Assembly: GCF_900698905.1 (NCBI RefSeq)
Contig: NZ_LR217707.1
Location: 248,001-312,000 of the forward strand
DNA: 64,000 bases
Direction of reading: 5' to 3'
Source: Buchnera aphidicola (Cinara kochiana kochiana)
GTDB taxonomy: Bacteria; Pseudomonadota; Gammaproteobacteria; Enterobacterales; Enterobacteriaceae
The notes beneath the pieces were generated by a model, which saw nothing but the letters and a program-made list of their open reading frames with translations, did no database searches and was not told where the DNA came from. Of this stretch, positions 9,196 through 52,629 are shown in pieces. The first letter of the stretch is position 1. The number at the start of each line of letters is the position of its first letter. The position numbers were made by a program, and so were the translations under genes.

Positions 9196-9843
9196 CTAGA
9201 TATTAGAATTCTTGATTTTAATATGAGGATATAATTTCCATGATATTCCTACATTTATATTATTTAATAAACTATTCAAACTTTTAAAATTTACTTGATT
9301 TAATTTTTTATTGATATTAACGTGCACATCACAATGTACATATTGATTTATTAAATATTCCATACCAACAGAAAAAATTGGATAAAACTGTTTATATTTT
9401 TGTAACATAAAAATATCTGTTAATTTGTTATTATTTATTTCAGCCGTTAATTGAGCTCCAATTTTAGTATAAACATTAATCTTATCTTTAATTGGATGAA
9501 TAATATTCGCAGCATATTCTATGTTAGAAAAATATGTACTGAATGTATTATGCTTAATATCTTTAATAACATTTTCCAATATATTAGATTTTAACTCTAT
9601 ATTGAAATGAGGATTAAACTGATATTTTGAAAAAATACCAGGACGTAGTGCAATAATACCTTGTATTATATTATTATAATTCAAATAATCTAAATTCTTG
9701 TATTTATTATATAATTTTATTGGATGCAATGCATGACATTGAATTCCAAAATTCCATTTTCCTGACCTAGATATAGATTTTGCATGAGCTGTTGAAAAGA
9801 AACTAGTTACAAACAAAATACATATAATAGCAAATTTTTTCAT
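9196..9843 (-). CDS. ompA: OmpA-like outer-membrane beta-barrel protein, barrel only
   Basis: A 215-aa protein with a clear Sec signal peptide: MKKF, a hydrophobic core to about residue 18, then an AHA-type cleavage site near 20-21. The rest alternates polar and non-polar residues as amphipathic beta strands. It ends with a strand VGISWKLYP that resembles the last strand of the OmpA eight-stranded barrel. Its place between the tRNA cluster and the flagellar locus agrees with my recollection of Buchnera ompA. The periplasmic peptidoglycan-binding domain of E. coli OmpA (about 150 residues) is absent. The ATG at 9843 is preferred because GGA precedes it at good spacing; the ATG at 9849 abuts that site. 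Assignment rests on architecture and context. Confidence 0.65.
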   Translation of the reverse strand: MKKFAIICILFVTSFFSTAHAKSISRSGKWNFGIQCHALHPIKLYNKYKNLDYLNYNNIIQGIIALRPGIFSKYQFNPHFNIELKSNILENVIKDIKHNTFSTYFSNIEYAANIIHPIKDKINVYTKIGAQLTAEINNNKLTDIFMLQKYKQFYPIFSVGMEYLINQYVHCDVHVNINKKLNQVNFKSLNSLLNNINVGISWKLYPHIKIKNSNI

Positions 9844-11043
9844 ATACATTCCATTCTTTTATGTAAAAGTATAAAAATAATTCATATGCCTTAATGTCAT
9901 TGACATGAATTATCAAATCAATAAACAATATTCATAATATTAAAATAATTAAATTTTAATTATATAAAAATTATATAATTTTTTAATACATTGTAATTAT
10001 ATTAATAGGATTATTAATCATAAAAAAATAATGTTGTATTATAATTAATGATAATATTAATACAGTTGAATAACATTAATAATATTATTTTTAATTAAAA
10101 TGTTTAATATACTTATCAAGAATAATTAAACATAATTATAATTTCAACGATGTAATTATAAATTACCGTATAATTAATATTATAATTTATCACTCAATAG
10201 ATTTCATTAGTTAATTATTATAACAGCATTAATATTATAAAATAAAATTTATAAAAATAAAAATAATAAAATATTTAAATTGTAATAATAATTACAATTA
10301 TAATATAATAGTAAAAATATATTTATATCCTAAAAATAAAATAAAATAGTTATTAAAAATAATTAATATTAATAATTTAAAAATTTATAAATTAAATAAA
10401 AAAGTTAATATTTTAGTTAATTATTTAAATATTTTGAAAATTAATGTACATACTATTATTGTGTTCAAAATAAGAATATAAAAGATATATTTTTTAAAAA
10501 ATTTATATATATTGTATATATATACATATATATAAATTTAAATATGTAACATACAAATATTACCTGCTTTATTATATCATACATATAATAAGATTTATTT
10601 ATTTCAAATAAAAATAAATAACTAAATTATTTGTACAATATAAAAATATTGATACACATAAAAATTAAATATTTTAATATATAAATTTTATTAAAAATTG
10701 AATTTTATATGGTATATATATATTAATAAATATTCAATATTTGTATATTAAAAAAACAATAATTTATATTTTTAATAAAAAAACATTAAATAAATATTAA
10801 ATTTATTAATAAATTTAATATTTATATGGTATAATTATTAATCAATATAAAAATATATTTTAATTAAAAATATATTTGATATATTATTGTTAATATATAT
10901 ATTTTTAATTTTATTTATTATTTAAAATTAAAAGTAAAAATTTTAGTAACATTAATAAATAATTAATTAATTTAATTATTACTATATCTTAATATTTTTA
11001 TAGATTAATAAAAATATTATATCTTTAAAAAACGGAGATTTCG
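9844..11043. other. 1.2-kb gene desert at the position of the flagellar flg cluster
   Basis: About 1,200 bp of almost pure A/T with no recognisable reading frame. Related Buchnera genomes carry flgN and flgA-E here. Since flgF follows directly, this stretch is probably the fully eroded remains of those genes plus the upstream regions of ompA and flgF. Confidence 0.6.
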
Positions 11044-12338: not shown

Positions 12339-13288
12339 ATGAACATTATAAACTCTATAAATACATCTATTGTAATTACAAAAAATATGTCAGAACAAAG
12401 AATTGATAATTTTTTATTTAAATCTTTAAAAAATCTACCAAAAAGTATGATATATCGTAGTTTAAGAATCGGAAAAATAAAAATTAATAAAAAAAAAGTA
12501 CATCCTTACTATAAATTAAAAGTTAATGACTGCATTACACTATATTCTATTTCAGTAGAAGTAAAAAAAAAAATATTTTTTTAAAAAAATCAGTAGTTAA
12601 TCTGTTTTTAAAAAATATTTTATTTGAAGATAAATATTTAATTATCTTTAATAAACCACACGGAATTGCTGTGCACGGGGGTAGTGGAATTAATTACGGA
12701 GTAATAGAAATATTTCGAAATATCCGTAAAGAATTAACATATTTAGAACTTATTCATCGCATTGATAAAGAAACATCTGGCATATTAATGCTCGCAAAAA
12801 AACGATCTATATTAAAAATAATGCATGAAAAATTACGAAATAAAACAATACATAAAGAATATTTAGCATTATTGCACGGTCATTGGAATAAAAAAAATAC
12901 TACTATTAATCTTCCATTACTAAAAAAAAAAGGTATAAATCAAAAAAAAAAAGTATGTATTCATAAAAACGGAAAATCCGCAATAACTAAATTTAAAGTA
13001 CGTCAATATTTTTATAATACTACTTTAATATCTATTGTCCCTATAACAGGTAGAACACATCAAATTCGAGTACACACATCACAATTTGGACATCCTATTA
13101 TTTTTGATCAAAAATACGGAAATCATAAAATAGAAAAAAAAATAATTAATAAAAAAAATAATAGATTACTCTTACATGCTTATAAAATTTTATTCTTTCA
13201 TCCTAAAAACAATAAAAAAATTTTTATAACAGCACCATTAGATGATCAATTTAAAAATTTATTAAAAATTTTTTCAAAAAAAAAATAA
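12339..13288 (+). pseudogene. rluC: 23S rRNA pseudouridine synthase RluC, frameshifted in a poly(A) tract
   Basis: RluC makes pseudouridines 955, 2504 and 2580 in 23S rRNA. The first frame (12339-12584) encodes the S4 RNA-binding domain (SEQRIDNFLFKSLKNLPKSM) and stops at 12582. The catalytic domain continues in another frame from about 12575 to 13288, with the catalytic-aspartate motif HRIDKETSGILML and the GRTHQIRVHTS motif intact. The break lies at a run of 11 A (12563-12573). One extra A would join both parts into a protein of normal length (316 codons), with no other lesion. This is either a sequencing indel, a recent pseudogene, or a gene rescued by slippage at the A tract. Confidence 0.88.
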
Positions 13289-13792: not shown

Positions 13793-14761
13793 ATGCATAA
13801 AATTTCATTAATTTTTCCCGGATATGGACTACATAATATAGAATTTTTAAAATCATTTATTAAGAATCACATTACTATCAAAAATACATTTAATGAAGCT
13901 TCAGATATATTGCATGATAATATTTATTATAATTGTTTTAAAAAAAAAAATAATTCTATTTATTTAAATAAAAATATGTACTTATTAACCTTTATTTCAT
14001 CTATAGCAATATATAGATTATTAAGTCAAGAAATATCCATTAAACCTACAATTATAGCGGGACATAGCTTAGGACAATATTCTGCTCTTGTATGTAATGG
14101 TAATATATTGTTTCAAGAAGCATTAAAATTTATTAAAATACGTAATAAAATTATGTTATTAGCTGTTAAAAATGTAAAAATATTAACATTAGTTATTATT
14201 GGACTAAACTACATTTTAGTTAAAAAAATTTGTTCATTAATTTCTACTAAAAAAAAAGTATTTATTTCAATTATAAATTCAAATGAACAAGTAGTAATTA
14301 CAGGAAATTATTCTGCTGTTTATAGTGCTGGTTTAATATTTAAAAAACAACTACATGTGAAAGTAATCCGATTACCCATGTTAATTACACCACATTGCCT
14401 ATTAATGAAAAACCATAAAAAAAAATTTTCTCATTATTTAAATAAAATAACAATTTTAAAAGGAAATTATCCAATTATTAGCAATCATAAAGCTACTATA
14501 TTATATTCCAAAAAAGATATATATTGTTCATTAGTTAAACAATTATATAAAACAATACAATGGGAGAAAAGTATAATAAAAATTATTTCCATGGGAGTAA
14601 ACCTTTTTATTGAAATAGGTCCGGGACAAATATTAACTAATTTAAATAAAAAATATTTAAATATCTCATCATATTCTACTAACAGTGATCAAAAACTATC
14701 ATTAGTTATGGATATACTTAAAAATTATGAAAAAAAAAATTGCTTTAGTAACAGGAGCTAA
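13793..14761 (+). CDS. fabD: Malonyl-CoA:ACP transacylase FabD
   Basis: Transfers malonyl from CoA to acyl carrier protein for fatty-acid synthesis. The nucleophile elbow GHSLGQYSALV is intact (serine near residue 93), and the second catalytic region appears as ITPHCLLMK with its histidine. The N-terminal FPGQGSQ motif is altered to FPGYGLHN. The length is 322 aa, against 309 in E. coli. The excess comes from the C-terminus, which runs 35 bp into fabG in another frame; family homology ends at about the fabG start. A GTAATC stretch is the only weak ribosome site. It is first in a fabD-fabG-acpP-holB-tatD string. Confidence 0.9.
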   Translation: MHKISLIFPGYGLHNIEFLKSFIKNHITIKNTFNEASDILHDNIYYNCFKKKNNSIYLNKNMYLLTFISSIAIYRLLSQEISIKPTIIAGHSLGQYSALVCNGNILFQEALKFIKIRNKIMLLAVKNVKILTLVIIGLNYILVKKICSLISTKKKVFISIINSNEQVVITGNYSAVYSAGLIFKKQLHVKVIRLPMLITPHCLLMKNHKKKFSHYLNKITILKGNYPIISNHKATILYSKKDIYCSLVKQLYKTIQWEKSIIKIISMGVNLFIEIGPGQILTNLNKKYLNISSYSTNSDQKLSLVMDILKNYEKKNCFSNRS

Positions 14762-16810: not shown

Positions 16811-17620
16811 ATGTTCTTAATTGACACTCATTGCCATATTAATTGCTTAAATTATAATAATCAATCACTAAAATTAAATTCTATATTAAAAAAAGCTTAC
16901 AAAAAAAATATAAAACTGTTTTTATCTATTTCTACCTCTATACAAGATTTTTATCATTTATATAAACATACATATTCATATAAAAATATATTATTATCAT
17001 GCGGATTACATCCTAATTATAAACATACTGATAATGATTTAAAAATTATGAAATCATTAGTAAAAAACGATAAAGTTATTGCTGTAGGAGAAACAGGATT
17101 AGATTTTTATAAAAATAAACAAAAAAAAAAAGAACAAATAAAATTATTTGAATACCACATATACATATCTAATAAAATAAAAAAACCTATTATTATTCAT
17201 AATAGACAAGCTGATAATGAAATATTGAGCATACTTAATACTAATAAAAATAAATTATGTTCCGGAATAATACATTCTTTTACAGGTAATATAGATTTAG
17301 CAAGAAAATTACTAAATATGGGATTTTATATATCATTTTCTGGAATTATTACTTTTAAAAAATCAAATAATTTAAGATCAATATTAAAATTTATACCATT
17401 AAATAGATTATGTATAGAAACGGACTCTCCATATTTATCTCCTGAACCATATCGCGGAATACCAAATCAACCGTATTTATTATATTATATCGCTAAAAAT
17501 ATCCAAAAATGTCTCAAAATAGATTTTTTAAAATTTACTCATATATTAAATAAAAATTTTTTTACACTTTTTAAAATTAATAAAAATATATATAATATAA
17601 TAAATTTTAATGATTATTAA
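16811..17620 (+). CDS. ycfH: TatD/YcfH-family metal-dependent hydrolase
   Basis: 269-aa TIM-barrel hydrolase (265 in E. coli YcfH). Metal ligands are visible: DTHCHIN at residues 5-11, the GETGLDFY glutamate near 98, HNR and HSFTGN histidines, and ETDSPYLSP near the C-terminus. Family members act as 3'-5' DNA exonucleases or D-aminoacyl-tRNA deacylases; the role here is unproven. AAGGATAT precedes the ATG. Its position after holB matches E. coli. ptsG, the next gene there, is absent, and asnS follows convergently after 23 bp. Confidence 0.92.
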   Translation: MFLIDTHCHINCLNYNNQSLKLNSILKKAYKKNIKLFLSISTSIQDFYHLYKHTYSYKNILLSCGLHPNYKHTDNDLKIMKSLVKNDKVIAVGETGLDFYKNKQKKKEQIKLFEYHIYISNKIKKPIIIHNRQADNEILSILNTNKNKLCSGIIHSFTGNIDLARKLLNMGFYISFSGIITFKKSNNLRSILKFIPLNRLCIETDSPYLSPEPYRGIPNQPYLLYYIAKNIQKCLKIDFLKFTHILNKNFFTLFKINKNIYNIINFNDY

Positions 17621-49052: not shown

Positions 49053-50492
49053 TCAACATGTTCCGCTAATAGTCATTTTATCTACTTTAATGGTAGGTTG
49101 ACCAACATTTACAGGTACAGTTTGCCCATTTTTTCCGCAATTACCTAATCCGCTAGCCATTTGCAAGTTATTTCCTACCATAGATATAGACTTCATTACC
49201 TCAATCCCTGACCCAATTAACGTAGCTCCTTTTAATGGATGAAAAATCTTTCCATTTTTTATAAGGTACGCCTCTGAAGTAGAAAAAACAAAATTTCCAG
49301 AAGTAATATCTACTTGACCACCACTAAAATTAACAGCATATATACCATAATCTACACTATTAATAATATCTAAATGATTATCGGAACCTGATAATAAATA
49401 TGTATTTGTCATACGAGGCATGGGTAAATGAGCATATGATTCTCGTCGACCATTTCCAGTACTTTTTTGATACATAACATGTGCATTTAATTTATCTTGC
49501 AAAAAAGATTTTAAAACCCCATTTTTAATTAAAATATTATATTGGCCAGGTGTTCCTTCATCATCGATATTAACTGAACCCCTACTGCCGTGTAATGTTC
49601 CGTTATCTACAATTGTACATAAATTAGAAGCAACTTTTTGACCAATTTTTTTAGTAAAAATAGATGTTTTCTTGCGAATAAAATCTCCCTCTAAACCATG
49701 TCCAACCGCCTCATGAAATAAAATACCAGGCCATCCTGGACCCAAAACAACTGGAAAAGAACCAGCTGGAGAAATTTTAGCAGATAATGTAGTTAACGCA
49801 ATACGAACTGCTTCTTTAGTCCAAAAGTCTATTAACATTTCATTATTGGTTTTTTTTTTAAAAAAATCATTTATTTTAAATCTACCGCCCCCGCCATGAA
49901 AACCTTTTTCTCTCTTATTATTTTGCTCAACTATAATTTCAATAGTTATATATACTAAAGATCGAGCATCACTAGCTGGTACCATGCTGTCAGTAGATCC
50001 AACTAAAATTTCTTCTTGTTCACACGTTAATACAGCCTGAACATCAATGACACGATAATCTTGGCTTCTAGCTAAATTGTCAATATAATTTAAAATATAA
50101 ATTTTTTTTTCAACATAATTATCATCTATTAAATTAAATGAAGAATATGCATTTACAGAATGTAAATATACTTGTTTATTAATAATATTACCTGTTTTTA
50201 CATTAGACAACATTTTACATACTGTATCAATAGAATTATTTAAATTATTTAATTTAATGGAATTCGTATATGAAAAACTAGTAGAAGTATTTTTTATAGC
50301 TCGTATTCCTACTCCTTCATCAAAAAAGTAAGTACCCTTTTTAATAATTTTATTTTCTAAAACCCATATTTCTTGTTCTTTTGATTGAAAATAAATATCT
50401 CCAAAATCAATTTTTTTATCTAACATATTATCTAATAAAATAGAAATATTTTTTTTATTAATATTATACTTATTTAATAAAATATCTATCAT
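49053..50492 (-). CDS. tldD: Metalloprotease TldD
   Basis: 479 aa (481 in E. coli). TldD is the zinc-binding half of the TldD/TldE protease, known for microcin B17 processing and CcdA degradation. The HEAVGHGLEGD motif (HExxxH, about residue 263) supplies the metal ligands, and the C-terminal cysteine in MTISGTC is retained. The partner tldE (pmbA) is not in this window. Persistence in a reduced genome suggests a housekeeping peptide-turnover role (inference). Confidence 0.95.
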   Translation of the reverse strand: MIDILLNKYNINKKNISILLDNMLDKKIDFGDIYFQSKEQEIWVLENKIIKKGTYFFDEGVGIRAIKNTSTSFSYTNSIKLNNLNNSIDTVCKMLSNVKTGNIINKQVYLHSVNAYSSFNLIDDNYVEKKIYILNYIDNLARSQDYRVIDVQAVLTCEQEEILVGSTDSMVPASDARSLVYITIEIIVEQNNKREKGFHGGGGRFKINDFFKKKTNNEMLIDFWTKEAVRIALTTLSAKISPAGSFPVVLGPGWPGILFHEAVGHGLEGDFIRKKTSIFTKKIGQKVASNLCTIVDNGTLHGSRGSVNIDDEGTPGQYNILIKNGVLKSFLQDKLNAHVMYQKSTGNGRRESYAHLPMPRMTNTYLLSGSDNHLDIINSVDYGIYAVNFSGGQVDITSGNFVFSTSEAYLIKNGKIFHPLKGATLIGSGIEVMKSISMVGNNLQMASGLGNCGKNGQTVPVNVGQPTIKVDKMTISGTC

Positions 50493-51664: not shown

Positions 51665-52629
51665 TTATTTCATATCTTCTGAATATAAAGAATGTAATAA
51701 TTGTACCATATCTATTGGAGGACTAACCATCCAATTTTGCAATTTACGTGTAGAAGGATGCAAAAACTGTAACATACTAGCATGTAAGGCTGGTCTAGAA
51801 AATTTTAATAAAAAATTATATGTTAATTTAGAATAACCTAAAAAATTTGGTTTAATACCTCTAGAATATACATGATCACCAAATATTGGATGTAAAATAG
51901 AAGAAATATGTACTCTAATTTGATGCATTCTACCTGTTTCCATAGAAACACGAATATGTGTATAATTTCTAAAAATAGTAATTACTTTATAATATGTAAC
52001 TGCTGGTTTGCCACCAATACCTACAGACATCATCGTTCTATTATGGATATTTCTTTTAATAGGAACATTAATAGTTCCATCATATTCAATACGGCCAATT
52101 ACAATTGCATCATATTCTTTAATTACTTGACGTTGTTTAAATAAATTAATTAAATAATAATACGCAAAAATTGTCCGAGCTACAACTAATAAACCGGAAG
52201 TATTACGATCTAAGCGATGAACTATACCTGCTCTCGGTAACATAAAATTATTTTTATAATGAAAAATTAAAGCGTTTAATAATGTGCCTGAAGTATGCCC
52301 ATAACCTAAATGAACAACTAAATTAAACGGTTTATTTAAAATAATTATTTCAGAATCTTCAAAAATAATATCTAAAAATATATTTTCTTTTTTTATTTCA
52401 ATAAATTGAAAATCTTTTACTACATTAACTGAAATATAATCATTAAAAAAAATTTTTTTTTTGGAATAGTAACGATAACATTATTGACAGATACATATCC
52501 TAATAAAATCCATTTTTTTATACAAGAACGAGAAACTAAAGAAGTATTCTGAACTAAAATTTTATCTAATCTAGAATATTTTAATTTAGACAAAGAAACC
52601 AAAAAATTCAATTTAATCAAATTACACAT
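51665..52629 (-). pseudogene. rluD: 23S rRNA pseudouridine synthase RluD, frameshifted in a poly(A) tract
   Basis: RluD makes pseudouridines 1911, 1915 and 1917 in helix 69 of 23S rRNA. The N-terminal S4 domain is read from 52629 (RLDKILVQNTSLVSRSCIKK, VSVNNVIV) and stops at 52420. The catalytic domain continues in another frame to 51665, with ILNKPFNLVVH, the catalytic aspartate in AGIVHRLDRNTSGL and GRMHQIRVH. The break lies at a run of 10 A on the coding strand (T at 52453-52462) followed directly by 8 T. One additional A restores one continuous frame of about 321 codons with no other stop. Same lesion type as rluC. Confidence 0.88.

Follow-up and report, generated by a model that had tools for sequence, protein, structure and literature searches.

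A one-sign frame change at the same lysine codons of rluD recurs in symbiont-type bacteria and is probably corrected during expression

The gene for the pseudouridine synthase RluD is interrupted by a change of reading frame at a run of A in the 64,000-nucleotide stretch of the Buchnera aphidicola (Cinara kochiana kochiana) genome analyzed here (the window). Is such a gene being lost, or is it still read into a complete protein? The locus (51665-52629) lies on the minus strand and is split at a CC-A10-T8 run. In the order of that strand, the A10 run at 52462-52453, which carries the codons P-K-K-K and is the point of the frame change, is followed by a T8 run at 52452-52445, whose length differs among relatives. 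The upstream frame (52453-52629, minus strand) encodes the N-terminus and most of the S4 domain (Pfam S4 in residues 20-58 of 59, profile positions 2-40 of 48). Its zero-frame reading into the A10-T8 sequence is P-K-K-K-F-F, and the S4 open reading frame as a whole, 52420-52629, ends in ...IPKKKFFLMIIFQLM followed by a stop. The downstream open frame (51665-52477, minus strand) comprises the tail of S4 and the catalytic domain (Pfam PseudoU_synth_2 in residues 44-192). It has no internal stops from 52477 to 51668, with the stop codon at 51665, and is reached through a net +1 in the RNA or a -1 shift of the ribosome. The original prediction of a break at the A10-T8 junction that one added nucleotide would correct is thus borne out. 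Its placement of the break in the linker between the S4 and catalytic domains is not: in the intact relative G011, S4 spans residues 22-67 and the site corresponds to K59-61, at about position 40 of the 48 in the S4 profile.

The downstream piece scores above the cut-offs of TIGR00005, the RluA family pseudouridine synthase model (227.6 bits versus 192.7), and of PF00849 (102.3 bits versus 26.8), and RluD is the top-ranked NCBIfam family for both pieces. The cut-off of 351 for the RluD equivalog NF008385 is missed by the downstream piece (263.3 bits) and also by the divergent intact copy of G011 (290.9 bits). Runs of A10 are common in the window, with 78 overlapping 10-mer matches versus 22 expected. 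The run itself is therefore unremarkable, and it is the frame change there that exceeds chance.

The window contains a second gene of the same kind. The rluC locus (12339-13288, plus strand) is split at an A11 run, at 12563-12573, with a sign identical to that of rluD. Its upstream frame (12339-12584) encodes the S4 domain, and its downstream open frame (12530-13288) carries the catalytic domain (Pfam PseudoU_synth_2 in 12671-13285). The rluC site lies past the S4 domain, and alignment of the two proteins places the two sites about 20 residues apart. The likeness between rluD and rluC is one of architecture and sign, not of homologous position; the direction that the two genes were predicted to share is confirmed, and extends to 45 rluD genomes, whereas the shared position holds only loosely. 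The statement that two of two large-subunit Rlu genes are affected is likewise correct within the window but not for the genome, in which a third PF00849 gene (L003, 246 aa), taken for rluB by its form, is intact.

The sequence of the site was read in 16 genomes of Buchnera from Cinara and other Lachninae, including the window genome (442,301 bases in 3 contigs) and the Buchnera of C. cedri (G010), C. pseudotaxifoliae (G012), C. fornacula (G013), Tuberolachnus salignus (G015) and Nippolachnus piri (G009). Over its first 2500 bases, the larger plasmid of the window genome has 83% identity with that of C. pseudotaxifoliae. The comparison of the run among sister genomes, which had been suggested beforehand, shows rluD interrupted at identical Lys codons in 14 of the 16 and rluC split in 11, with one sign throughout. 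The catalytic open frames of rluD found by a PF00849 search are 266-277 aa long in these 14 and reach 323 aa in G011 and 357 aa in G014. The rluC gene is in frame in G004, G010, G011, G014 and G015. A tree built on 8651 aligned residues of 21 ortholog groups, rooted by choice on G009 and G015, has the two genomes with intact rluD, G011 and G014, as sisters. The remaining 12 genomes of the Cinara group make up one clade, and every member has rluD split, in the same phase. Part of this conservation is simple inheritance within clades.

The split is not confined to Buchnera. The intact G011 protein was used as the query against 36 small genomes, 23 more of genus g88 (the symbionts of reed beetles, Donaciinae), three of the genus of G105 and 51 others, which with the first 16 make 129. 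Among these 129 genomes with a listed RluD match, 45, from seven genera, carry the rluD split at these Lys codons, with a single sign in all 45. Genus g88 accounts for 23 of its 24 genomes. Eight genomes from five further genera are split at these codons (G032, G072, G226, G242, G313, G261, G329 and G385), the last six being judged from printed frames. The diversification of the Donaciinae spans 75-100 million years and the chromosomes of their symbionts measure 453,917-516,927 bases, according to the part of the reed-beetle genome report that was available (PMC7289800). The one g88 genome with rluD in frame, G164, is grouped with the split G163 when a tree is built from the catalytic part (support 74), so that the frame may be regained, if rarely.

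Among the 84 other genomes, 76 have an rluD open frame of at least 304 aa. In the remaining eight (G063, G091, G197, G263, G073, G224, G364 and G416) the gene is otherwise short or broken. The lesion of G263 is elsewhere in the S4 part, and this genome was left out of the 45. The four genomes of genus g59 (G073, G224, G364 and G416; loci L192, L260, L261 and L262) have a catalytic part but lack a recognizable S4 part ahead of it, and G416 has an undetermined base in that region; a catalytic-only RluD may persist in this genus. The surroundings of the site were fetched for 40 loci, all but one (L193, of g88) from outside the two large genera; G114, G063 and G388, in which the anchor had no match, were left unread.

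Genes that neighbor rluD and rluC in Buchnera do not behave in this way. Across 65 kb of synteny, about one seventh of each of the 16 genomes, 57 ortholog groups including rluC and rluD were compared, some of them absent from some genomes. The frame is shifted in 14 genomes for rluD, in 11 for rluC, in five for group 56 and in four for tatD, and no other group exceeds five; rluD and rluC thus make up 25 shifted gene copies, compared with at most five in any other group. The two most-affected of the 57 groups are both of the S4-bearing RluA paralogues, for which the chance is 1 in 1596. The same 16 regions hold 1412 runs of A or T of at least 9 within open ORFs that were called mechanically and span 90 aa or more, so that long runs alone are not the cause of the pattern. 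The changes in group 56 (five genomes, mixed sign) and group 26 (one genome) lie at the N-terminus of the reference and were treated as artifacts.

The sign of the changes is also uneven. Single changes near a run of at least 9 in well-covered genes amount to seven events after related genomes are merged by eye: fabD in G007, fabD in G013, holB in G014, tatD in G003/G005/G012, group 0 in G009, group 54 in G014 and group 59 in G006/G008. All seven have the sign found in the rlu genes. This count leaves out changes with no run of at least 8 nearby (group 2 in G011, of opposite sign; groups 18 and 33 in G011 and group 30 in G012, of the rlu sign) and the low-coverage fragments of group 0 in G001 and G013. 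In the apparently decaying tldD, G001 and G006 have four frame changes apiece, two of the eight having the rlu sign and six the other. The difference in sign between the seven run events and tldD gives a Fisher p of 0.007, and the one-sign pattern is consistent with a correction that works in one direction.

Three of these groups can be located on the window. The tatD group, syntenic to 16811-17620, has a clade-specific change near an A11 run. The fabD group, syntenic to 13793-14761, has its single changes near A11 and A9 in two genomes that are not sisters. The tldD group, syntenic to 49053-50492, is intact in the window and serves as a contrast case for decay.

The constraint on the split proteins was estimated in six pairs of Lachninae Buchnera with intact neighboring genes as controls, for which the median dN/dS is 0.15-0.20 and the range over all pairs 0.02-0.53. 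The catalytic parts evolve like intact genes in these pairs, with dN/dS of 0.14-0.25 for RluD and 0.13-0.21 for RluC. The S4 part of RluC has values of 0-0.25. The S4 part of RluD, 54 codons long, has values of 0.22-0.48, which exceed the control median in each of the six pairs and, in one (G003-G012), also the top control gene (0.43), making the constraint on this half weaker or less certain. Extra stops and further junctions were sought in the 14 split rluD genes of the genus and none was found, the catalytic frame being open and the junction single in each. Multiple inactivating changes and relaxed selection, the usual marks of pseudogenes, are absent, the S4 half of RluD being somewhat above the control median.

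These results bear on the two least probable explanations of the split. Were rluD and rluC pseudogenes whose modifications are vanishing, both would be interrupted, as they are, and the somewhat faster S4 half of RluD could reflect it; in an ant symbiont a fragmented rluD is indeed treated as lost and counted among the putatively inactivated genes, to judge from the part of that paper accessible to us (PMC12779916). However, the single junctions without additional stops and the catalytic dN/dS of intact genes make ongoing loss very improbable, and what appears to be true decay looks different nearby, where tldD has its mixed-sign changes in two relatives. The original prediction had left a choice between expression tolerated through slippage and joint loss of both modifications; the first is now favored, and the decay in related genomes that would have spoken for the second is absent. 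An error of sequencing or assembly is a natural suspicion, since long homopolymers are error-prone in some technologies. It is hardly credible for a phase that is the same in 45 genomes of seven genera, among them separately published aphid and reed-beetle symbionts, when so many other long runs stand inside open ORFs of the 16 regions. Moreover, the reed-beetle genomes were obtained by Illumina sequencing and their reference by PacBio corrected with Illumina, as stated in the available portion of their description (PMC7289800).

The protein still appears to be under selection where this was tested, and so the frame is probably corrected when the gene is read. We consider it probable that full-length RluD and RluC are made through frame correction at the run, most likely by slippage of RNA polymerase. 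The two would then be functional genes that lack, in the DNA, one step of the frame at a long A run, and the complete enzyme would come from the share of messages or translations that regain this step at the run, most likely by the polymerase adding a nucleotide while copying it. Such a lesion would be old in at least two lineages and would have originated repeatedly at the same RluD codons. It would be kept since the corrected product suffices, possibly also with the reduced output being favored. That the frame is corrected at all, that this happens in the RNA, and any advantage of it are inferences.

For 50 split genes, copies of rluD and rluC, the site sequence and codons were tabulated and compared. 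The run is at least 9 long (9-15) in 48 of them; the other two have A8 and A7. Both exceptions are reed-beetle symbionts, G182 (L228), which keeps the split with A7 followed by G, and G179 (L231), with A8 followed by G. Runs of this length are short for polymerase slippage, and the two genomes count against it and speak for the ribosome, which makes them the best natural cases for telling the two mechanisms apart. In Buchnera transcripts, 151 of 157 insertions and 16 of 57 deletions were found in homopolymers; this concentration of insertions fits the single sign of the lesions. The same study, in the part available, reports no transcription error that restores a frame, and overall rates of insertion and deletion that are similar (PMC5574713).

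The signals around the run bear on the choice between polymerase and ribosomal slippage. Programmed -1 frameshifting of the dnaX type proceeds in the -1 direction on a heptamer of the type A-AAA-AAG. The rluD and rluC sites share both features: as read from their codons, each of the 50 split genes has a heptamer A-AAA-AAA or A-AAA-AAG in phase, the sign is always that corrected by a -1 shift, and G182 and G179 keep A-AAA-AAG in spite of their shortened runs. With a faithful message the ribosome could then slip back by one. However, such a heptamer is nearly automatic where Lys-Lys precedes a lesion of this sign, and the sites differ from dnaX in lacking a Shine-Dalgarno-like word at the usual spacing, a consistent downstream structure and a conserved end of the short product. 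The words GGAG, AGGA, GAGG and AAGG, sought within 30 bases upstream in 56 sequences, occur once, at -30 in G184. Downstream folding is inconsistent, with a mean z of -0.3 over the 50 genes; only four rluD values are below -2 (G004, -4.4; G001, -4.1; G179, -3.0; G012, -2.4), and all 11 values for rluC are negative. The distance from the start of the run to the zero-frame stop varies between 4 and 29 codons, and this wandering shows that the tail of the short product is not conserved, which argues against a conserved function for it. Ribosomal frameshifting as the source of the full-length enzymes thus appears rather unlikely. Still less probable is a gene divided into two separate proteins, S4 and catalytic, the second made by internal initiation. 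Both pieces are conserved, and the four g59 genomes have the catalytic part but no recognizable S4 part. A start codon (ATG, GTG or TTG) of the catalytic frame lies at least 37 codons ahead of the PRAG/LELVHR anchor, early enough to include the NK strand, in 14 of the 50 genes; in the other 36, by a tally made by reading in which rarer start codons were not counted, there is none, and the upstream frame stops at variable places.

Correction by RNA polymerase, which we prefer, has precedents. Slippage is described as rescuing poly(A)-tract frameshifts of Buchnera and Blochmannia in cell-wall genes and a histidine gene, with 12-50% of the transcripts corrected (Tamas 2008, as cited in the accessible parts of PMC5009743 and PMC3017870). 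Those cases resemble rluD and rluC in having a single indel in a long A run of an otherwise intact gene of an AT-rich insect symbiont. They differ in that corrected transcripts were measured there, whereas rluD is known here from DNA, at one site in seven genera, with a second site in the paralogue rluC. Ancient homopolymer frameshifts that are conserved between species and kept by selection have reportedly been described in Blochmannia by Wernegreen, Kauppinen and Degnan in 2010. The rluD lesion is likewise an old homopolymer frameshift, to which it adds convergence across genera at one set of codons. Convergent homopolymer frameshifts are also recorded in Buchnera, for example in murF, and the authors raised a possible regulation, as far as the available part of their article goes (PMC3164680). 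There, too, one gene was hit independently in several lineages; the murF cases are described in that part as independent inactivations, whereas rluD is affected at the same codons, with one sign, in most species of two genera. Frameshifts rescued by slippage, and frameshifts kept for long, are therefore already known in organisms of this kind, and what appears to be new is the convergence on one site in one enzyme. This recurrence of rluD and rluC was not found in the literature on frameshifts and slippage in these symbionts, a coverage that did not extend to the texts of Tamas 2008 and Wernegreen 2010. The words rluD, frameshift and slippage do not occur in the main texts, as accessible to us, of the reed-beetle symbiont genome (PMC7289800) and transcriptome (PMC12508126) papers. 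In symbionts, a frameshift at a run of A is commonly scored as loss of the gene or as noise that is passively tolerated. A recurring one-sign lesion in rluD, whose protein is constrained where tested, makes adaptive recoding in reduced genomes testable with existing RNA-seq, and gene-content tables in which rluD of such symbionts is entered as lost should be re-examined.

It is conceivable, if doubtful, that the shifted frame is itself a selected regulatory device, a repeatedly evolved recoding site that keeps the synthase low at a level set by the run. Tentatively, this would apply to rluD in AT-rich symbionts and, in Lachninae Buchnera, to rluC as well. If it is true, the shifted phase is favored over the in-frame state and has persisted for most of the 75-100 million years during which reed beetles have diversified. 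The retention of phase was set against intergenic runs, aligned between orthologous flanking genes in six pairs of genomes; these are not independent of one another, and filtering on the flanks favors runs that are conserved. Intergenic A or T runs of at least 9 differ in length in 2/4, 5/8, 2/4, 2/4, 1/3 and 0/2 cases, 12/25 in total. At this rate about 9.9 changes (5.3-16.8) are expected over the 12-species tree, whose length is 1.82, and none is seen in rluD. For runs of at least 10, with two of 10 changed, the expectation is 3.2 (0.5-10), which is so low that the retention is not clearly more than inertia. An earlier, larger estimate of about 27-29 changes, which used the two closest pairs only (7 of 12 runs of at least 9 changed), was lowered by the recount over all pairs.

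Runs in coding sequence changed in none of 656 comparisons, a set that excludes shifted genes by construction. Polarization with three taxa gave no polarized change in 10 runs. The intergenic control for the reed-beetle symbionts has few runs, and some of its intervals contain part of the S4 region of rluD; both samples are too small to carry weight. The case for selection of the shifted state, as judged from the retention of phase, is suggestive. A neutral ratchet, with the in-frame and shifted states equally fit and mutation biased toward deletion, may instead account for it.

Elsewhere in the window, an ORF of 217 aa with a signal-like N-terminus is located at 9196-9849. The members of its ortholog group are from 208 to 485 aa long, and the G015 reference of the group matched only four of the 16 genomes. 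In the other genera, second RluD-like matches, which are presumably rluC, are mostly open over more than 300 aa. Those of G022, G138, G217, G248 and G295 are short or interrupted; they are probably rluC and might be further split copies.
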